Of a stretch of DNA of 64,000 nt, positions 43,390 to 51,377 are shown in pieces; the first letter of the stretch is position 1, and each line of letters begins with the position of its first letter. The DNA comes from a virus: positions 39,828-103,827 of IMG/VR virus record IMGVR_UViG_3300042564_006100; one strand, written 5' to 3'. Below the pieces are notes generated by a model, which worked only from the letters and a program-made list of their open reading frames with translations, did no database searches and was not told the DNA's origin. A program made the translations under genes and the position numbers.

Positions 43390-44054
43390 GATAGCCCCTC
43401 CGCGTCCAGCCAGGATTCCAGATCGGCGAGTGCGGCCCGGACGCATCCGCCGCTGCCCACCGCGATCCGCAATGACGTCTGTTCATCGACCGGCCAATGT
43501 CGGCGGAGCATCGTGGCGATTTCCTCAGTGGACGGAGCGGCGAGCTTGATCGACTGGAAGCGCGTCTGAAACCGCTCGGTGAGCAGGTCGAGCTGCAGAT
43601 TGCTCGTGCCGACCACCGCCCGCCCTGGTGGAAGACGGTCGAGATAACTCAGAAGCAAGTCCTGTGCATCCCGCGTGCACCGATCCATTTCGTTGATGAT
43701 CTTCACCGAATAGACACCGAACAGCGAACAGACACCGAGCGTGCCCATCCACTGTTTCACGGTTTCGACGGTGACGAGCTTGCCGTTGTATTCCTCGATG
43801 GCGAAGCGCGTGCCGGATAAGGCATCGGCTACCATGTCGGCGATGCTGGTCTTGCCGACACCCGGCGGGCCGTAGAGTAGAATCTTCACCGGAACGGCAG
43901 GATCATCGTGGAGCTTGCGCGCCTTGGCGACGAGTCGGCGTGCGACGGTGGCGGCGGGGCCGCAGAGGTCATCGGGTCCGGTAGGTCGCCACGCCAGCGG
44001 AGAGCTTGCGGGGCACGGTGTAGGGTTCGGCAGAATCTTGAAGAGTTGTGACAT
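43386..44054 (-). CDS. AAA+ ATPase, clamp-loader-like
   Basis: A 222-residue AAA+ ATPase: Walker A LYGPPGVGKTSIADMVADAL near residue 62, Walker B VKIINEMDR near residue 120, then VVGTSNLQLDLLTERFQTRF, which has the sensor 1 and arginine-finger layout of clamp loader (RFC/DnaX)-like proteins. A small C-terminal helical lid follows. The start (44054) lies inside the upstream gene (86-bp overlap). A host-interaction or replication role is likely. Confidence 0.7.
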   Translation of the reverse strand: MSQLFKILPNPTPCPASSPLAWRPTGPDDLCGPAATVARRLVAKARKLHDDPAVPVKILLYGPPGVGKTSIADMVADALSGTRFAIEEYNGKLVTVETVKQWMGTLGVCSLFGVYSVKIINEMDRCTRDAQDLLLSYLDRLPPGRAVVGTSNLQLDLLTERFQTRFQSIKLAAPSTEEIATMLRRHWPVDEQTSLRIAVGSGGCVRAALADLESWLDAEGLS

Positions 44055-44208
44055 GGGGATCTTGGTTGGAATTGGTGATGGCCCTGGCGACGGCCACCGC
44101 GCCCTTGCGGTAGAGGGTGACGGCGAGTAGTTCGCCATCAACGATCACCGACCAGTAGCGCGTGGCGTAGCCATCGGGTTTGCGGTATTTTTCGACTGCG
44201 ACCTTCAT
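43969..44208 (-). CDS. Hypothetical phage protein, 79 aa
   Basis: A 79-residue protein (MKVAVEKYRKPDGYATRYWS, then a C-terminal basic part). The ATG at 44208 overlaps the preceding stop (TGATG). Looks like a small beta-hairpin protein with no known domain. Confidence 0.55.
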   Translation of the reverse strand: MKVAVEKYRKPDGYATRYWSVIVDGELLAVTLYRKGAVAVARAITNSNQDPHVTTLQDSAEPYTVPRKLSAGVATYRTR

Positions 44209-44543
44209 CAGAAGTTGTAGTCGTGGAATTGGCGGCGGCCGGGAATGACCGGCTCGCCGTTGGTGGTGCGGAACCAACCATCCTTGCGGCGGCTGGCGCG
44301 GTGTGTCGCCCCTTCGGGATTGAGCGAGTATTGGTAGGTCTGCTCGGTGTTGTTGGTGCAATGACCGCCAAACCCACCGGCGACGAACTCGGGTTTCCAG
44401 TCGTCGAGAACGGCGGTGTCCTCCTGCATCCAGAGGGTCTTACCACTGGGGCTGATGCGGATCACCGTGCAGGCGGTGCGGTCGGAGTAGTGGCAGACGG
44501 TCGCGCCACCTCCGACGGCAGGTGTCCAGTCGGGTGCGCTCAT
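44208..44543 (-). CDS. Hypothetical phage protein, 111 aa
   Basis: A 111-residue protein rich in aromatic and cysteine residues (TVCHYSDRTACTVI, then HCTNNTEQTYQYSL). ATG 44543 overlaps the preceding stop (ATGA). No family recognised; the sequence may form a small beta domain. Confidence 0.55.
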   Translation of the reverse strand: MSAPDWTPAVGGGATVCHYSDRTACTVIRISPSGKTLWMQEDTAVLDDWKPEFVAGGFGGHCTNNTEQTYQYSLNPEGATHRASRRKDGWFRTTNGEPVIPGRRQFHDYNF

Positions 44544-45070
44544 TTGCCCCAGCCCTCCCTCCGACTGCGGGTCTTGATCGTGTTGGGCGAAAGGCCGAAG
44601 TACTCGGCGGTCTGCTTCACGCTGCGGCATTCCTCCCAATGAGCCCGGACCTGCAACCACTGTTCGTCACCGTGGCCGGGATTGCCAGCCTTCTTGGCGG
44701 GCTTGGATGCTTTTGCCTTGGATGCCTTGGCCTTGGGTGGCGTGGTCTCCGCTGGCGTTGGTTCGGGCTCAGCCGCGTCGGCGAACGCGTCGTAACGTCC
44801 CGGGCTGGCCTCGGGTTCTGGACGGGTGAGTGGCACGACGTTCGCGGCTGGCGTGACATTGCCATCACCCCCGGCGAGGATTTCCGCGACGATCTCGCGA
44901 ATCAGTGGCACCGGGATTTCGGTGATGGTGAAGACCAGTCCGTTGAGCGTCTTGCGCCCGATGGTTTGCTTGAGGAACTTCAATGCCTCGCCTCGGGTGC
45001 GGCCCTGGTAGCGGCCTTCGAATACGTTGGTTTCCTTGTCGTCGCAGACGATGTAATACAGTTTGTTCAT
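44540..45070 (-). CDS. HTH-tailed phage protein, 176 aa
   Basis: A 176-residue protein with a folded N-terminal part (LYYIVCDDKETNVFEGRYQG), a Lys/Ala/Pro-rich linker, and a C-terminal HTH (VKQTAEYFGLSPNTIKTRSR). Such a two-part layout is usual for phage regulators that bind DNA through the tail end. The leader (ACCAAACACCACC) is Shine-Dalgarno-free. Confidence 0.55.
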   Translation of the reverse strand: MNKLYYIVCDDKETNVFEGRYQGRTRGEALKFLKQTIGRKTLNGLVFTITEIPVPLIREIVAEILAGGDGNVTPAANVVPLTRPEPEASPGRYDAFADAAEPEPTPAETTPPKAKASKAKASKPAKKAGNPGHGDEQWLQVRAHWEECRSVKQTAEYFGLSPNTIKTRSRREGWGK

Positions 45071-45082
45071 GGTGGTGTTTGG

Positions 45083-45313
45083 TTATGGTTTGGTGTTGGT
45101 GACGTTGCCGTCGGTGTCGATCCGGACGCTGAACGCCAGCAGTCCGGTGGGAGTTTGCTTGGCGAAGTCGGCTCGAAATTCGCGGGCATGAATGCCGGCC
45201 ATCGGATCGACCGGCAGGATGCGCCGGGCGGTGAAGCCGTTTTTCTCAAGACCGCGAATGCTTTGCTGCATCGCCTTGTTCGAATAGGTGTTAGGAATAG
45301 ATGCTGTTGTCAT
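45083..45313 (-). CDS. Small phage protein, 76 aa
   Basis: A 76-residue protein (MTTASIPNTYSNKAMQQSIR...). I chose ATG 45313 because a 60-bp leader found also before two other genes ends at this codon; an upstream ATG at 45385 would place that leader inside the coding sequence. No family recognised. Confidence 0.55.
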   Translation of the reverse strand: MTTASIPNTYSNKAMQQSIRGLEKNGFTARRILPVDPMAGIHAREFRADFAKQTPTGLLAFSVRIDTDGNVTNTKP

Positions 45314-45372
45314 AGCATCCCTCATCTGCCCGTCTGATCGGGCACGTCCATGTCTTTTTTCGTCTTTCTGTT
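45311..45372 (-). promoter_or_regulatory. Three-copy leader element, copy A
   Basis: Minus-strand copy of a leader reading CAGAAAGACGAAAAA, GACATGGAC, a variable middle with GCCCG-ATCAGA-CGGGC, then GGCAGATGAGGGA just before a start codon. Nearly identical copies lie at 47030-47092 and 48017-48077. Promoter or translational control is inferred. Confidence 0.55.
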
Positions 45373-45381
45373 GGATGGTTT

Positions 45382-46083
45382 TCATGATGGAAGCGGGCGG
45401 TTGATTTGGATGGTGCGACCCTTGGTTTCCCCGGCGACGTAGCTGCCGGAATGGAGGTTGCGGCGGCGTTGCGACCGGTTGCGGAGCTTGCCGTAGTGGT
45501 CGGTGACGTAGCGGGTGATGACGGCCTCCTGATCCACCACCACCAGTCCGTATGCCTGGCGCTGGTCGGCGGCGTAGGATTGTTCGGCGCGCTGCTTCGC
45601 TGCTTTGAGTTCAGCGTTGAGTCCGTCGCGCAGTCCCCGGTAGTAGGATGCCTTGTCAGGATTGGCGTGGCTCCGCTTGAATTCGTTCCAACAGCGGAAG
45701 AAGGTCTGCCGCAGGTAGTTGAAGGCGAAGATGGCGAAGTCGATGTCGGCGGCGGCACCGATGATGTCCACCGGAGTCCCGCGCCCATTGGGCATCAGGA
45801 TCGTCTTCACGTTGAAGTGCGCCTGCAGGATCGAGAGGATCATCAAGTCGGCAGGGTTGAGGGTCTTCGGCAGATCGACCTTGCCCTTGTTGACGGTGAA
45901 CGACCCGCCGCCAGATTCGCCGCGTTCCATGCGGAGCAGCGCCGAGTCGATGTTGTGGCGGGTCATCAATTCCTGTGCCTTGGCGAGAGCCACCTTCGCT
46001 TCGTTCTCGGTGGAACCGCGGGAGCGGTCGGCCAGTCGCAGAAGCTTGCGGATTTTATCGAGGATGTCGGATTCGGATTTCAT
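45382..46083 (-). CDS. DUF2786 family protein
   Basis: A 233-residue protein. The N-terminal part matches DUF2786 (DILDKIRKLLRLADRS, then NEAKVALAKAQELMTRHNID). The rest (NYLRQTFFRCWNEFKRS, YYRGLRDGLNAEL) matches the helical domain that follows in phage and host members. Function unknown. Its 5' end is partly duplicated at 47177-47228. The leader CAACCACTGAGATCCC lacks a Shine-Dalgarno sequence. Confidence 0.7.
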   Translation of the reverse strand: MKSESDILDKIRKLLRLADRSRGSTENEAKVALAKAQELMTRHNIDSALLRMERGESGGGSFTVNKGKVDLPKTLNPADLMILSILQAHFNVKTILMPNGRGTPVDIIGAAADIDFAIFAFNYLRQTFFRCWNEFKRSHANPDKASYYRGLRDGLNAELKAAKQRAEQSYAADQRQAYGLVVVDQEAVITRYVTDHYGKLRNRSQRRRNLHSGSYVAGETKGRTIQINRPLPS

Positions 46084-46103
46084 GGGATCTCAGTGGTTGG
46101 GTG

Positions 46104-46394
46104 TTAGATGTCCTCGTCGGGCAGGCCTGCGGTGATGACATCCACCGGGATGTGGGTGGAGCCGTGCGTATCGCAGAGGTCGTCATAGCGGATCTTCGCG
46201 GCCTTGAGTTCGGCGCGTGCGGTGTCCAGATCATCCCAGCTTTCGAGAAAGACCCGGCGCGGACGACCGGCGAGAACCGAGCTTCGTCCGTAGGTCGAGT
46301 GACCGTAGAGCGACGGATTGTTGGAGCGGTAGGTTTCGCCGCGCCCGAATTCGAGAGTCAGGCGGCGGTGCTGTTTGATGTATTCAATGTCCAT
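46104..46394 (-). CDS. Hypothetical phage protein, 96 aa
   Basis: A 96-residue basic protein (MDIEYIKQHRRLTLEFGRGE...). The region VFLESWDDLDTARAELKAAK looks like a helix hairpin. No family recognised; its A/C-rich leader (CAACCAAATACCACC) is typical here. Confidence 0.5.
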   Translation of the reverse strand: MDIEYIKQHRRLTLEFGRGETYRSNNPSLYGHSTYGRSSVLAGRPRRVFLESWDDLDTARAELKAAKIRYDDLCDTHGSTHIPVDVITAGLPDEDI

Positions 46395-46419
46395 GGTGGT
46401 ATTTGGTTGGGGTTGGTGA

Positions 46420-46638
46420 TTAGCGGCGGGCGCGGCGGGAGAACTTGCGGCGACTGGCGGGCGTGTTATCGCGGATGATCTGTGCGACTCGTTCCGTGCT
46501 GCCGTCGGTGAGCCAGATGCCTTCGACTTTGCGGCGTTGAATCTCGGCCTGTGCGAGTGGCAGTTGGTCGCCGAACATGAAATCCGGGGTCATGTTGAGT
46601 TGGGCGTCGGTCCAGTTGGTAAAGTCGATGGGGTTCAT
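46420..46638 (-). CDS. Small phage protein, 72 aa
   Basis: A 72-residue protein (MNPIDFTNWTDAQLNMTPDF..., ending RKFSRRARR) with a basic C-terminus. Probably an early accessory protein; no family recognised. Confidence 0.5.
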   Translation of the reverse strand: MNPIDFTNWTDAQLNMTPDFMFGDQLPLAQAEIQRRKVEGIWLTDGSTERVAQIIRDNTPASRRKFSRRARR

Positions 46639-46661
46639 GATTGCGGTTCTACTGGTTGAAT

Positions 46662-46829
46662 TTAGTGGGAATTGACGGCTTTTTCGGCATCGCTCATTCC
46701 GAGCTTGGAGTAGGCTTCACCGGAGTATCCGGCAGCGGCCCATTCTTCACGGGCCTCGTCGGTGAGCAGTTCAGCGACTTGCTCGATTTCCTCGATGGTC
46801 ATGGCATCAATTTCTGCGGCGGTGTACAT
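46662..46829 (-). CDS. Small phage protein, 55 aa
   Basis: A 55-residue acidic protein (MYTAAEIDAMTIEEIEQVAE..., ending SDAEKAVNSH). Preceded by CCATAAAAACC, the A/C-rich leader type. Short, helical, and without a known family. Confidence 0.5.
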   Translation of the reverse strand: MYTAAEIDAMTIEEIEQVAELLTDEAREEWAAAGYSGEAYSKLGMSDAEKAVNSH

Positions 46830-46861
46830 GGTTTTTATGGTTTGTTGGGGTTGGTATTATT

Positions 46862-47032
46862 TCAGCGGAAGGTCACTTCATCGGGGTGAATTTCGCGGAC
46901 TGCGTGGACTTCCGCGCCGTTCTTATCGACCCATGCGTTCAGTGCTTCGACGCTCTTGAAGGTCTTGCGCCAGGGGGTGGACTTCATGCCTTTAACTCCG
47001 TGGGCCTCGATGTATTGGGTATTTGCTTTCAT
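46862..47032 (-). CDS. Small phage protein, 56 aa
   Basis: A 56-residue protein (MKANTQYIEAHGVKGMKSTP..., ending EIHPDEVTFR). The ATG at 47032 is immediately preceded by the leader element shared with two other genes. It looks like a small DNA- or protein-interacting accessory factor, but no family is recognised. Confidence 0.55.
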   Translation of the reverse strand: MKANTQYIEAHGVKGMKSTPWRKTFKSVEALNAWVDKNGAEVHAVREIHPDEVTFR

Positions 47033-47092
47033 CGTCCTTCATCTGCCAGTCTGACAACTTGAGTCCATGTCTTTTTTCGTCTTTTTTTGTCC
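47030..47092 (-). promoter_or_regulatory. Three-copy leader element, copy B
   Basis: Minus-strand reading: AAAGACGAAAAAAGACATGG, then ACTCAAGTTGTCAGACTGGC, then AGATGAAGGACG before ATG 47032. GACA and TGTC form a dyad 10 bases apart. Nearly identical to copy C at 48017-48077. Confidence 0.6.
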
Positions 47093-47176
47093 CGTTCCGA
47101 ATGCCAGTTAGATGATGAATTGGCATGGTGCATGAGCGTCATAATGCGTGCCAATCACGCGTCATTTCACAATGAG

Positions 47177-47228
47177 GCTTGCGGATTTTTAAGGATGTCG
47201 GATTCGGATTTCATGGGATCTCAGTGGT
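47177..47228. repeat. Duplicate of the 5' end of the DUF2786 gene
   Basis: 52-53 bp nearly identical to 46044-46097, including a perfect 37-bp block (AGGATGTCGGATTCGG ... CTCAGTGGT) that covers the first codons of the DUF2786 gene. It starts in the gap between the ligase and a 56-residue gene. Confidence 0.75.
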
Positions 47229-47242
47229 ATGACTGTTGGGAT

Positions 47243-48019
47243 CTATTCGTAGTTGCGGACGGCAAGGAATGTTGGGAATCGAGGGACTCCATCAGGAGTC
47301 AGTTCGAAGTAGCGGACCGTCACGATGGCACCGATAGCCGGCGGGGTTTCCCTTTCGGCGTCGGTGAATCCGGACCCGGCGCGGAACGTGGTGCCGTCCC
47401 TGAGTTGGCAGACAAGCGCTCCGAGTCGTCCTTCGTGTTTGCCTTCACCGTCTTGATGGCCGATCACGGTGGCCTCGTCGTCGATGAATCGCTTGAGCTT
47501 GCGAAGGTGACCGGACCGCTTGAATTCGTAAGGTGAACGCGGAGCGCGGAGCATGACGCCCTCGCCCTTGCCGTTGAGGATGGACCGCTCGAAATCAAGC
47601 AGTGCGTTGCTGGACTGACAGAGCACCTGCTCGACTATCGAGACATGGCCGGGGAGTTGCAGGGCGAGCAACGTGCGTTGCCGGTCTTCGGTCGGGCCGT
47701 CGGCTTGAACATCAAAGACCAAATATTTAACCGGTGACCAGTCGGCTGTCATGGACCGAACGATGCTCACCGCGTCGTTGAACTTCCCTCGCCCGACGAA
47801 CAGCTCTCCGTCCAGCGGCAGAGCGGGCAGCCCCGCTTTGAACCATGCCGGGGCGTGGAAGATGTTGCCTCCACGGGAGCGGAAATGTTCACCGTCCCAA
47901 ATGGCACGGACTCCGTCGAGTTTCTCTGACATCCACCAGCCGTCCGGCCGCATGGTCTTGTCCCAGTTCTTCGCCAGCATCGGCGGTTTAGTTGTTAGGT
48001 CGGGTGTGTTTGCTTTCAT
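47243..48019 (-). CDS. ATP-dependent DNA ligase
   Basis: A 258-residue minimal ligase: adenylation motif SEKLDGVRAIWDG (lysine nucleophile) near residue 32, LPLDGELFVGRGKF, GEGVMLRAPRSPYEF, and LRKLKRF (motif V). It seals nicks during phage replication. ATG 48019 follows the shared leader element. The missing N-terminal domain is usual for phage and bacterial minimal ligases. Confidence 0.85.
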   Translation of the reverse strand: MKANTPDLTTKPPMLAKNWDKTMRPDGWWMSEKLDGVRAIWDGEHFRSRGGNIFHAPAWFKAGLPALPLDGELFVGRGKFNDAVSIVRSMTADWSPVKYLVFDVQADGPTEDRQRTLLALQLPGHVSIVEQVLCQSSNALLDFERSILNGKGEGVMLRAPRSPYEFKRSGHLRKLKRFIDDEATVIGHQDGEGKHEGRLGALVCQLRDGTTFRAGSGFTDAERETPPAIGAIVTVRYFELTPDGVPRFPTFLAVRNYE

Positions 48020-48077
48020 CGTCCCTCATCTGCCAGTCTGACAACTTGAGTCCATGTCATTTTTCGTCTTTCTGTCC
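48017..48077 (-). promoter_or_regulatory. Three-copy leader element, copy C
   Basis: Minus-strand reading: CAGAAAGACGAAAAATGACA, then TGGACTCAAGTTGTCAGACT, then GGCAGATGAGGGACG before ATG 48019. TGACA and TGTCA flank a 10-base spacer. Homology to copy B continues upstream to about 48150. Confidence 0.6.
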
Positions 48078-48133
48078 GAGTTATCACATGCCCGATAGAC
48101 ACCGAATTGGCACACCTCCTGAACGTCACGATG

Positions 48134-48201
48134 CGTGCCAATCAGGCGTCATTCGGAGCGCTCCGAATGCCGCGTGATTGGCACGTTTCATGAGTGAAAC
48201 G
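48134..48201. repeat. 52-bp palindrome plus second dyad
   Basis: 48134-48185 is a nearly perfect inverted repeat centred on GGAGCGCTCC (arms CGTGCCAATCA ... TGATTGGCACG). A second dyad, CGTTTCA-TGAG-TGAAACG, covers 48184-48201. They lie between the divergent ligase and amidoligase genes, so could be operators, a terminator pair or a recombination site. Confidence 0.6.
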
Positions 48202-48279
48202 ATGCGAAGATATTATGTCTTTTTTTCTCTAACTCCACTTAGCCATGGACGTGAGGTGGCACCATGGCAGATATTACCC

Positions 48280-49086
48280 ATGACAACGCCAACCATGTCC
48301 CGCCGCTTCGGAGTTGAGATCGAATTCCTCTCCACCATTACCAAAGAGCAGGCCGTCATGAGCCTGAGAGCCGCAGGCATCCGGGTCGAATCCTCCTACT
48401 ACACCCACGACACAACGCCCTATTGGAAGATCGTCACCGACGGCTCCTGCGGTTTGGAACTCGTTTCACCGGTCCTCGAAGGTGAGGCCGGCATCGAGGA
48501 AGTCCGCATCGCCGCCGCCGCACTGGAAGCCGCCGGTGCCCAAGTGGACAAGCGCTGCGGACTTCATGTCCATTTCGACGCCCGCACGATGTCGCTCAAA
48601 GCGGTGAAGAACCTCTTCAAACTCTGGCTGAAATTCGAGGACGTTCTGGACACCTTCCAACCGCAGTCACGCCGGGGCAATAACAACACCTACTGCCGCA
48701 CGAACCTCGAAAGCGGAGTCTCTGACAGCGAGGATCACCGAGGACAATGCTTCCGGGTGTTCCGCAAAATCGACGCCTGCAAGAACATGGATCAAATGAA
48801 GCAGCTCTACCCCTGTCGCTATCGGAAGCTGAACATACAATCCTACTTCCGCCATCAGACGCTCGAAGTCCGCCACCATTCGGGCACCACCGATCCAGCC
48901 AAGATCACCAACTGGGTGCGGTTGATGGCCCGCATGTTCGACGCCGCCGAAGCCGCCGCCACTGTCCGCAACCGCCCGGTGGACACCGGCCTCGGCATGA
49001 ACCGCATGAAGTGGTTCTTCCAAGCCATCGACGCCCGCGGGGTCACCAAATTCTACACTGAGCGTGCCAAAAAACTGGCCGCCTGA
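48280..49086 (+). CDS. Amidoligase (Amidoligase_2 family)
   Basis: A 268-residue COOH-NH2 ligase of the glutamine synthetase-like fold. Conserved segments are RFGVEIEFLS, WKIVTDGSCGLELVSPVLEG, CGLHVHFDART and QSRRGNNNTYC. Members join amino groups to carboxylates and are predicted to tag proteins or make peptides; several occur in phages. It is on the plus strand inside a minus-strand phage operon and begins a three-gene unit. ATG 48280 was chosen over the in-frame 48178 and 48295. Confidence 0.82.
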   Translation: MTTPTMSRRFGVEIEFLSTITKEQAVMSLRAAGIRVESSYYTHDTTPYWKIVTDGSCGLELVSPVLEGEAGIEEVRIAAAALEAAGAQVDKRCGLHVHFDARTMSLKAVKNLFKLWLKFEDVLDTFQPQSRRGNNNTYCRTNLESGVSDSEDHRGQCFRVFRKIDACKNMDQMKQLYPCRYRKLNIQSYFRHQTLEVRHHSGTTDPAKITNWVRLMARMFDAAEAAATVRNRPVDTGLGMNRMKWFFQAIDARGVTKFYTERAKKLAA

Positions 49087-49095
49087 TTTCCACCA

Positions 49096-49374
49096 ATGAC
49101 AATGACCACCATGAACACCGAATACCATACCATCGACGGCGCGACATTCTCCGCAGTCGATGCCACCGACCTGATGACCAAGCTCCGGGCCGACAGCTTC
49201 AACCCGGAAGCCGACCTGCCGTCCTACTGCCGAGCCACCGCTCGTGCGTCCAAGATGCAGACCGGCAAACCGCACCGCCAGTGGCCGCCGAAGGCACTGG
49301 TCGAAGACATGCTCGCCTCTGGCCTGATCGCCACCGGCAAGCGCCATCCGGAATGGGGAACCACCAACGACTGA
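49096..49374 (+). CDS. Small protein of the amidoligase unit, 92 aa
   Basis: A 92-residue protein (MTMTTMNTEYHTIDGATFSA..., ending ATGKRHPEWGTTND) lying 9 bp after the amidoligase. It could be a partner or substrate of the ligase; no family recognised. Several starts are possible (ATG at 49096, 49102 and 49111). Confidence 0.6.
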   Translation: MTMTTMNTEYHTIDGATFSAVDATDLMTKLRADSFNPEADLPSYCRATARASKMQTGKPHRQWPPKALVEDMLASGLIATGKRHPEWGTTND

Positions 49375-49380
49375 ACGGCC

Positions 49381-49659
49381 ATGGCATACCGAATCATGGA
49401 ACCGCGCTTCCCGCTCGGGAAAACCGTGGCAACTCCCGGAGCGATGGCACTCGGAATCGACCTGGCATCCTACATGCACCGCCACCACTGCGGCGATTGG
49501 GGTGACCTCGACGAATGCGACAAGCAGGCGAACGAGGATGCCCTGATCCACGGCGACCGCATTCTCAGCCACTACAAGCTCGGCGGAGGCCGGCGCATCT
49601 ACATCATCACCGAATGGGACAGGGCCTCGACATGTGTCATGCTCCCCGAGGAGTATTGA
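49381..49659 (+). CDS. Plasmid-type conserved hypothetical protein
   Basis: A 92-residue protein with the pattern FPLGKTVATPGAMALGIDLA, then HHCGDWGDLDECDKQANEDA, then IYIITEWDRASTCVMLPEEY. This corresponds to a well-known small protein carried by plasmids and conjugative elements; function unknown. It is 6 bp after the previous gene, in one plus-strand unit with the amidoligase. Confidence 0.7.
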   Translation: MAYRIMEPRFPLGKTVATPGAMALGIDLASYMHRHHCGDWGDLDECDKQANEDALIHGDRILSHYKLGGGRRIYIITEWDRASTCVMLPEEY

Positions 49660-49969
49660 TCCACGCGACGATGCGCTCGATGAAGTCGAGATCGAGCTGC
49701 TTCTCAGTCAGACGGATGACGGTCCAGCCCGCCAACACGGCTTCGAGATACTTCTCGGCGTCCTTGGCGTAACCCGCTCCGCGGTTGTGCCGACCAGCTC
49801 CGCGCTGGAAAATCCCGCCCTCGATTTCGATCAGTGTGCGGCTTGCAACATGTGCAAAGTCGGCGCGCCACAAACGGGAAGCATGGAACCTCACTTCCCG
49901 CTCCAGGGGCGGACCTTGCGCCACCCTCCAGAGTAGCAGAAACCTTGATTCCAAGCGGGATGTAGCCAT
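49637..49969 (-). CDS. DUF559/Vsr-like endonuclease
   Basis: A 110-residue protein with the DUF559/Vsr-type fold: FHASRLWRADFAHVASRTLI, then EIEGGIFQRGAGRHNRGAGY, then a C-terminal helix starting LAGWTVIRLTEKQLD. D and E residues in the beginning of these segments would form the PD-(D/E)XK site. ATG 49969 lies 15 nt after a TTGACT box. It overlaps the convergent amidoligase-unit gene by 23 bp. Confidence 0.65.
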   Translation of the reverse strand: MATSRLESRFLLLWRVAQGPPLEREVRFHASRLWRADFAHVASRTLIEIEGGIFQRGAGRHNRGAGYAKDAEKYLEAVLAGWTVIRLTEKQLDLDFIERIVAWINTPRGA

Positions 49970-50114
49970 TTCCCTGGCGTCCGGAGTCAACGTCCCGAGC
50001 GTCCGTTATGTGGGAAACGCGAAAACAATTTATCACGTAAATTCAATGAGGGTCGGAACATCCCCGCCAGCAGTCTGGACGGCTAGAAGACTCCCTACTC
50101 GGTTCAGGCCGTTC

Positions 50115-50492
50115 TCAGACATGCCCCTTCTTTCGTGCCCACATGTCGCGGGCGTTGTGGGATCTGCTTGCCCACTCAAGGTTATCGACACGGTTGTTTT
50201 CCCTGTTGCCGTCAATGTGATTGACCACGGGATGGCTCTTCGGATTTTCCAGAAATTCCATGGCCACGACCCTGTGTGCCAACATCCACTTCTGATAGCC
50301 ATCGATCATCAGACCGATGTGGATGTATCCGTTGTGAGCTTTCGTCCCTTTGAGCGAACCTCTGATTAGGTGCCTAAACTTACCAAACGTCGAAACCTCG
50401 TATCCCGGGGCGTAAGTGATGGGCCTCCAGCTCTCTTCGCCAATGCCCATGCCCGGGGATTTCGTTTCGAAGATGTCGAACGTCATCTGCAT
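50115..50492 (-). CDS. HNH endonuclease with NUMOD4 domain
   Basis: A 125-residue free-standing homing-type endonuclease. The N-terminal NUMOD4 segment is WRPITYAPGYEVSTFGKFRH. The HNH_3 domain follows with HRVVAMEFLENPKSHPVVNH, then IDGNRENNRVDNLEWAS. It would cut a recognition site in other phages, favouring its own spread. The start overlaps the stop of the upstream gene (TAATG). Confidence 0.85.
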   Translation of the reverse strand: MQMTFDIFETKSPGMGIGEESWRPITYAPGYEVSTFGKFRHLIRGSLKGTKAHNGYIHIGLMIDGYQKWMLAHRVVAMEFLENPKSHPVVNHIDGNRENNRVDNLEWASRSHNARDMWARKKGHV

Positions 50493-50683
50493 TACTCTTC
50501 GCCCCTTCGATTCGCTTCAATCGTGATCGTTATCTTGGCGCACTGCACGTTGCAGGTTTGAGCCTGTGCCATCGCGGCAATCACGTCCGGTGTGAGGTCG
50601 ATGGACGTTTGCCCTGGCAGTTCAACCATGAACCGCGCCCCTTCATTGAGGAGACGCGTAAGTCGCTGGATTGGTGTGGTCAT
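50492..50683 (-). CDS. Small phage protein, 63 aa
   Basis: A 63-residue protein (MTTPIQRLTRLLNEGARFMV..., ending ITIEANRRGEE), translationally coupled to the HNH gene (TAATG). Helical with a beta tail; no family recognised. Confidence 0.5.
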   Translation of the reverse strand: MTTPIQRLTRLLNEGARFMVELPGQTSIDLTPDVIAAMAQAQTCNVQCAKITITIEANRRGEE

Positions 50684-50698
50684 GATGGGGTGAGTGGT

Positions 50699-50765
50699 TG
50701 CAGGGGCGGGAGTTGAACCCGCAGGGGCGAGAGTATGAGGCTCGCCTGGGACCGTCCCTCCCTGC
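50699..50765 (-). tRNA. tRNA-like element, anticodon CAT, minimal D-arm
   Basis: Minus-strand 67-nt segment with GCAGGG/CCCTGC acceptor ends, a perfect 5-bp T-stem (GCGGG-TTCAACT-CCCGC), and an anticodon arm with loop CTCATAC (CAT) and one closing mismatch. The D-arm is only GGGA-CGG-TCCC, far shorter than normal. Genomic ACC follows the discriminator. It is probably a degenerate or phage-type tRNA(Met/Ile)-like molecule, or a tRNA remnant; charging is uncertain. Confidence 0.45.
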
Positions 50766-50771
50766 GTTTGG

Positions 50772-51377
50772 TTAGAGTGCTTCGTAGATGTCCTTCACGA
50801 ATTCGAAGTCCTCTTTGAGTGCCTGCCGACGTTCTTCGTCCCACTCATCGACTGGGGCTGTCTCAGTCTGCTCCTGCCACCAACGGCGGATCTTGTTCAA
50901 GAGCGAGAGGTAGGTCGTATGGCGCTTATCGTGTGGATCACCCGCGACTTCCTGTTCGGTGGCGAGTCGCCCAAAGTTGATCGACTTCTGGAGTCGTCGT
51001 TTGCCCAGCTTGTGTTGCACGGCCATCTCAAGCCAATGCCGCTGTTCTTCGGGATCCTTGATCTTGGCGACAACTCGATGGTGCGTGTAATCGAGTTTTT
51101 CGTTCCGGAACGAAAATTGCACTTTCCGCGCCACATAAGCGAAGTCGGCAAGAGTTTGGTAGGCCATTCCGGTGCGTCCCAAAGCTTCTTCGTATTTGTC
51201 GCCCCATCGATTCTCTCCATAGTTGATCCAGTCGCCGATAATGAAGCCGATAGACTTGCCAACGGGTGCAAGTTTCTGGCCCAGCTCGTCCCATTCTTCG
51301 AAACTGAGTTCCTCGTTGAATTTGATGCCAGTAGAAGTGATGGCAAACTTCGGGTCGTTGATTGCGAGAGTGTTCAT
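50772..51377 (-). CDS. Phage regulator-like protein, 201 aa
   Basis: A 201-residue protein with GDWINYGENRWGDKYEEALG, then GMAYQTLADFAYVARKVQFS, and a helix GKRRLQKSI. This succession resembles LmbU-like/ParB-type regulators found in phages and actinobacterial elements, but the match is loose. The gene is coupled to the next upstream (ATGA). Confidence 0.55.
   Translation of the reverse strand: MNTLAINDPKFAITSTGIKFNEELSFEEWDELGQKLAPVGKSIGFIIGDWINYGENRWGDKYEEALGRTGMAYQTLADFAYVARKVQFSFRNEKLDYTHHRVVAKIKDPEEQRHWLEMAVQHKLGKRRLQKSINFGRLATEQEVAGDPHDKRHTTYLSLLNKIRRWWQEQTETAPVDEWDEERRQALKEDFEFVKDIYEAL

Follow-up and report, generated by a model that had tools for sequence, protein, structure and literature searches.

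An amidoligase gene and its small neighbor form a two-gene cassette in prophages

Described amidoligase systems and the prophage locus

Iyer et al. 2009 is reportedly the founding paper on amidoligase families. The sets described for phage members of the Amidoligase_2 family (PF12224; PHROG_2443) pair the ligase with a class-II glutamine amidotransferase (GAT), as in OM43 and Arthrobacter phages, or with a gamma-glutamylcyclotransferase (GGCT), as in Bacillus and Geobacillus phages and in C. clostridioforme prophages. In the GAT pairs, the second gene lies directly 3' of the ligase on the same strand. Amidoligase_2 proteins are annotated also in Porphyromonas phages, as well as in those of Bacillus, Geobacillus, and Arthrobacter. 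The phage enzymes were predicted years ago, and the available portions of three papers (PMC10580990, PMC11318856, PMC10945688) report no demonstrated substrate. In the same portions, cell-wall modification (PMC10580990, PMC11318856) and nitrogen metabolism (PMC10945688) are proposed as roles. Pupylation likewise combines a glutamine synthetase (GS)-fold enzyme, PafA or Dop, with a small protein, Pup, which is disordered and ends in Glu or Gln.

The window analyzed here, the whole stretch of 64,000 nucleotides, is included in a 103.8-kb virus record. On its plus strand an amidoligase gene (AL) is followed by two small genes, A92 and B92, and this trio is located inside the minus-strand early region of a prophage. 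By profile score, AL is a clear member of Amidoligase_2, but neither GAT nor GGCT was found in the island; the neighbors of AL are A92, B92, a DNA ligase gene, and a DUF559-like gene. A92, which has no family model, fills the position that GAT holds in the GAT pairs. The GGCT pairs use the same ligase family and some include an A92-like gene, whereas no GGCT lies beside AL in the window or in those Verrucomicrobia relatives that were inspected. Among solved structures AL matches Dop best, but A92, unlike Pup, is predicted to be folded and has no conserved C-terminal Glu or Gln. The features of the locus are as follows.

48280-49086, plus strand: AL, Amidoligase_2 (PF12224), a GS-fold carboxylate-amine ligase of 268 amino acids from a conserved ATG (open reading frame, profiles, predicted fold)
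49096-49374, plus strand: A92, candidate small partner protein of 92 amino acids, no named family (position directly 3' of AL)
49381-49659, plus strand: B92, small protein of plasmid type that belongs to the locus (plasmid records; stands without AL and A92 elsewhere)
47243-48019, minus strand: ATP-dependent DNA ligase, divergent neighbor outside the cassette (profiles; present in some relatives only)
49637-49990, minus strand: PHROG_503/DUF559-like gene, convergent neighbor outside the cassette (profile matches)
48244-48282, plus strand: leader CATGGAC-N-TGGCAGA-N-ATG before AL (motif common to three minus-strand units)
48126-48193, no strand: 68-bp palindrome between the divergent AL and DNA ligase units (34-nt arms, 85% complementary)
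48107-48141, no strand: 35-bp inverted repeat TTGGCA-N23-TGCCAA, probable operator/promoter element (second copy at 47120-47154)

The three plus-strand genes are tightly spaced, with gaps of 9 nt between AL and A92 and 6 nt between A92 and B92; the A92 start is possibly an internal Met at 49111. Both flanks lie on the minus strand in the list of open reading frames, with the DNA ligase gene upstream and the DUF559-like gene downstream, and the 3' end of the latter overlaps B92 by 23 nt. The surroundings are those of a tailed-phage prophage, with terminase, portal, head protease, tape measure, primase, and helicase genes on the minus strand. A sequence-only reading of this DNA had described an amidoligase and two small genes running against the operon, with a convergent overlapping gene downstream. 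Its coordinates for the plus-strand genes were exact, and the convergent gene is the DUF559-like one. An Rfam search of positions 44,000-51,000 gave sub-threshold matches only, and no tRNA was found. The minus strand at 50772-51377 encodes a protein like LmbU-family regulators (E = 3.7e-33, just below the NCBIfam cut-off).

The contig carries a pair of related prophage modules, oriented alike, at contig positions 1649-32801 and 54150-91748, the second corresponding to positions 14323-51921 of the window. Their longer pieces are 71-92% identical. The trio occupies the same place in both, with protein identities of 80% (AL), 87% (A92), and 78% (B92). Values of dN/dS between the two copies are 0.24, 0.17, and 0.13, respectively, which indicates that AL, A92, and B92 are selected protein-coding genes. 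They are kept across dozens of loci. The hosts of close relatives are Verrucomicrobiota (MAGs of Akkermansiaceae and Verrucomicrobiaceae), and three copies occur in a single MAG, UWPOB_VERRUCO3. A type I restriction-modification locus (about 6.7-12.7 kb in the window) lies before the second prophage.

AL matched PF12224 with 135.5 bits (Pfam cut-off 22; E = 3.6e-39) and PHROG_2443 with an E value of 9e-45. In an alignment of 41 proteins comprising AL and its relatives, the GS-type motifs GxExE, DxS, E..SP, CGxHxH, RxxKxN, and ExRxH are intact in AL. Residues E13, E15, D54, S56, E60, S63, P64, C93, G94, H96, H98, R180, K183, N185, E196, R198, and H200 are invariant, and we infer that the conserved residues would play catalytic roles. 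An AF2 model of AL (pLDDT 91.9, pTM 0.90) found its nearest solved folds in Dop (E = 4.8e-4) and YbdK (E = 5.4e-4), then in glutamine synthetase and gamma-glutamylmethylamide synthetase. The Dop, YbdK, and GS matches had probabilities of 0.97-1.00, TM scores (query) of about 0.40-0.48, and identities of about 8-10%. The predicted fold of AL is glutamine-synthetase-like, and its resemblance to solved structures is remote; a search of the PDB by sequence found no relative with a solved structure. The YbdK/GCS2 carboxylate-amine ligases share the GS-like fold and supply the second structural match, but they are remote from AL (8-9% identity in structural alignment). In E. coli, YbdK is a free-standing enzyme and is not known to have an A92 partner. 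Because AL belongs to a GS-fold family, it would by analogy join a carboxylate to an amine with ATP. The amidoligase call of the sequence-only reading is borne out by profile score, motifs, and predicted fold, and the presumed catalytic residues, whose loss it had named as grounds for refutation, are in place. Two other phage amidoligases, from Porphyromonas (L131:3168-4277) and Arthrobacter (L133:2686-3765), have N-terminal extensions that look helix-turn-helix-like by eye; the Porphyromonas phage gene is placed between the portal/adaptor and neck genes.

Gene content of the cassette and its control region

Both flanks were covered in 87 viral loci, a set in which some contigs are entered twice, and 77 of these had the full trio. 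Among 117 related prophage loci, AL never occurred without A92, nor A92 without AL. Several more distant relatives are missing both genes and keep B92 and the DUF559-like gene; at the empty sites L378 and L453, the start codon of B92 comes directly after the shared leader. Because AL and A92 are missing together while B92 stays behind the same leader, AL and A92 are a two-gene cassette and B92 is a resident neighbor, the pattern of presence and absence being equally compatible with gain and with loss. The three genes had previously been read as an inserted "moron," and a comparison with related phages lacking the island had been suggested. That comparison found AL and A92 jointly missing in a few distant relatives, but with B92 still there. 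The idea of a cassette that is present or absent thus survives for AL and A92, but B92 is not part of it, and the insertion is not recent: the trio is found in the sister prophage and in 77/87 of the loci with both flanks, and the phage's own leader is used. A three-gene moron was rejected, since B92 is separable, as at L378 and L453 and in the relatives without AL and A92.

B92 is the protein that had been called plasmid-type, and it has hits in 173 plasmid records at E ≤ 1e-5. In a DUF6094 methyltransferase protein encoded by a Stutzerimonas plasmid (L346:2801-4270), the C-terminal 90 residues are a B92-like domain, and the database name "type I restriction endonuclease subunit M" may stem from this fusion. 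The junction of B92 and the DUF559-like gene (49637-49659), where the 3' ends overlap in most relatives, is an accessory hot spot. Other relatives carry inserts of 0.4-1.9 kb there, in which a GNAT-type toxin-antitoxin pair, a HipA-like gene, and an HNH-like gene were recognized by eye (L011, L014, L017, L018, L020-L022, L030, L032, L033, L039, L040, L052, L055, L066, L097). The recent insertions at the locus are these toxin-antitoxin-like inserts just 3' of B92.

A leader of the form CATGGAC-N(8-30)-GGCAGA-N-ATG precedes four transcription units, at 45311-45352, 47030-47069, and 48017-48056 on the minus strand and at 48244-48282 on the plus strand; 0.01 matches are expected by chance. It is able to fold into a hairpin at 48244 and 45311, and a leader of the same form precedes AL in 27 of 32 relatives. 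Standing behind a leader common to minus-strand units, AL is wired like its neighbors and unlike a free-standing insert. Because the leader is shared, AL and A92 are probably switched on with the replication-region genes, at induction or infection. The inverted repeat TTGGCA-N23-TGCCAA is found also in the sister prophage (L004 9249), and 30 of 32 relatives have a looser form of it upstream of AL. The 68-bp palindrome is built of two facing copies of part of this 35-bp element, and the 211-nt region upstream of AL folds far better than shuffles (z = -4.5). The upstream palindromes of the sequence-only reading are represented by the 68-bp one, but it is not conserved, as the sister prophage lacks about 50 bp.

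The small protein A92 and its exchange for a glutamine amidotransferase

Searches of A92 and B92 against Pfam, NCBIfam, PHROGs, PADLOC, and, by sequence, the PDB returned nothing credible, and the PADLOC defense models matched none of AL, A92, and B92. The AF2 model of A92, with a moderate pLDDT of 80, has the order strand-strand-three helices-strand. No match to this predicted fold was found in the PDB. Among predicted viral proteins, a few unnamed ones resemble it (A0A516M232, E = 2.7e-5), and these added no function. In 90 sequences of the family, conservation falls mainly on hydrophobic core positions and a D/E-L motif; no lysine, no cysteine, and no acidic residue at the C terminus is conserved, that end of the protein being variable. 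The available portions of the literature on phage amidoligases, the founding Iyer et al. 2009 excepted, contain no description of an A92 family.

The linkage of A92 to AL was assessed with a profile built from 17 seeds and then run on loci outside the seed set. An A92-like open reading frame directly follows AL in 56 of 83 viral AL loci (E ≤ 9e-6), a count that leaves out three hits with E > 0.5; in one of the 83 tested loci (L262), AL is identical to that of a seed locus. Among 8,739 open reading frames, there were just two other hits at E < 0.01, both of them second copies upstream of an AL, on two viral contigs (L273:353-592 and L274:2419-2673). Unseeded genomes of Bacillota and Verrucomicrobiota (L209-L212, L254) agree on A92 beside AL, and in each of the 10 phage records where A92 was hit, AL adjoins it. 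The seeds had come from a first profile, made of the Verrucomicrobia A92s, which detected weak homologues directly 3' of AL in loci of Bacteroidota, a Porphyromonas phage, and Parabeggiatoa, and from similar small proteins recognized by eye at that position in loci of Chthonomonas, a Bacillus phage, and a Geobacillus phage. Homologues immediately 3' of AL thus come from Bacteroidota, Bacillota, Armatimonadota, Chloroflexota, and Pseudomonadota, besides Verrucomicrobia. Judged from sequence, AL and A92 are neighbors in phages and prophages from six or more bacterial phyla. A natural fusion of the two, sought among the retrieved open reading frames, yielded just hits of E ~1 inside AL. Distant chromosomal ALs (Bacteroidota, Pseudomonadota) and AL clades with GGCT have no recognizable A92.

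Among ALs close to that of the window, 27 loci of the viral set are without A92; the position is held by a class-II GAT in 22 and by GGCT in 4, and one is unassigned. GAT and A92 were never found in one locus among those surveyed; GGCT and A92 can co-occur, as in Geobacillus GR1 and Bacillus 035JT001. A tree of 83 non-redundant ALs placed 17 GAT-type rows, together with an unassigned one, in a single clade nested among 60 A92-type rows, and two Arthrobacter phage rows with annotated GAT sit elsewhere; deep branches of the tree are weakly supported and many loci are related, so the counts express association and not independent events. A class-II GAT replaces A92 at the same position in this nested clade. 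As a point against a partner swap, the GAT clade could reflect a different reaction, and not a like-for-like replacement. The enzyme family is known, and what is new is the conserved small partner A92 and its exchange for a glutamine amidotransferase.

Possible roles of the pair

The reading we favor, although we consider it evenly poised between right and wrong, is that temperate phages possess in AL and A92 a two-component system for making amide bonds, with A92 as a partner subunit dedicated to the ligase. AL would activate a carboxylate with ATP as an acyl-phosphate and join it to an amine, as its fold family suggests; candidate targets are a phage protein, a host protein, a cell-wall peptide, and a small molecule. 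A92 would be a small subunit bound to AL for specificity or docking, choosing the substrate or presenting it, and in one AL clade a class-II GAT would take its place. The cassette would come on with the replication-region genes via the shared leader. A docking or specificity role is favored for A92 because the protein always accompanies AL in its clade, has a predicted fold, and shows conservation of the core type. A contact between the two proteins is suggested by gene linkage and conservation; against a partnership, adjacent genes can stay together by each being useful alone. A more specific proposal, which we put forward tentatively and consider unlikely, is that the pair is a widespread and hitherto undescribed protein-conjugation system of temperate phages, in which A92 would be an obligate acceptor, tag, or targeting subunit, with the amide-linked modification aiding host takeover or protection. 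A92 offers a concrete handle on amidoligase function, as a partner found in many phyla and exchanged for GAT in one clade. If A92 does steer or receive a modification, the pair would be a new phage-borne protein-modification system.

A92 might instead be the substrate itself, with AL adding an amino acid or peptide to it, or attaching A92 to another protein in the manner of Pup or a carrier protein. That a small protein is so strictly tied in position to a GS-fold ligase speaks for this, as does the presence of the Pup enzyme Dop among the nearest solved folds, and a non-conserved residue or the N terminus could be modified. However, the absence of a conserved lysine, cysteine, or terminal acid from the 90 sequences, with their variable C termini, leads us not to favor it, and A92 is predicted to be folded whereas Pup is disordered, according to the available part of PMC3511204. 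We consider it unlikely that A92 is a substrate. It also appears unlikely that the pair serves nitrogen or glutathione-type metabolism, or that it excludes superinfecting phages through an effect on the cell wall. Such roles have been proposed for phage amidoligases paired with GAT or GGCT, but in the available text these proposals concern the GAT and GGCT sets and rest on annotation or cite Iyer 2009; here no GAT or GGCT gene lies beside AL, and the leader groups AL with replication-region genes.

Two further readings concern the boundaries of the functional unit. Gaps of 6-9 nt and a gene order kept in nearly all relatives would fit a single functional operon of AL, A92, and B92, whose third component, B92, would work on the product or on DNA. 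We judge this very unlikely, given that phages without AL and A92 have B92 by itself at this site, that the examined Bacteroidota and other distant AL-A92 loci gave no B92 hit, and that B92-like domains occur in plasmid records and fused to a DUF6094 methyltransferase. Conversely, A92 could be a mere hitchhiker beside AL with no shared function. Prophage early genes are often tightly packed, and AL clades without A92 exist. Nevertheless, we regard hitchhiking as highly improbable, because the same neighbor turns up in six or more phyla, where the genomic settings differ widely, and the two genes are present or absent jointly.
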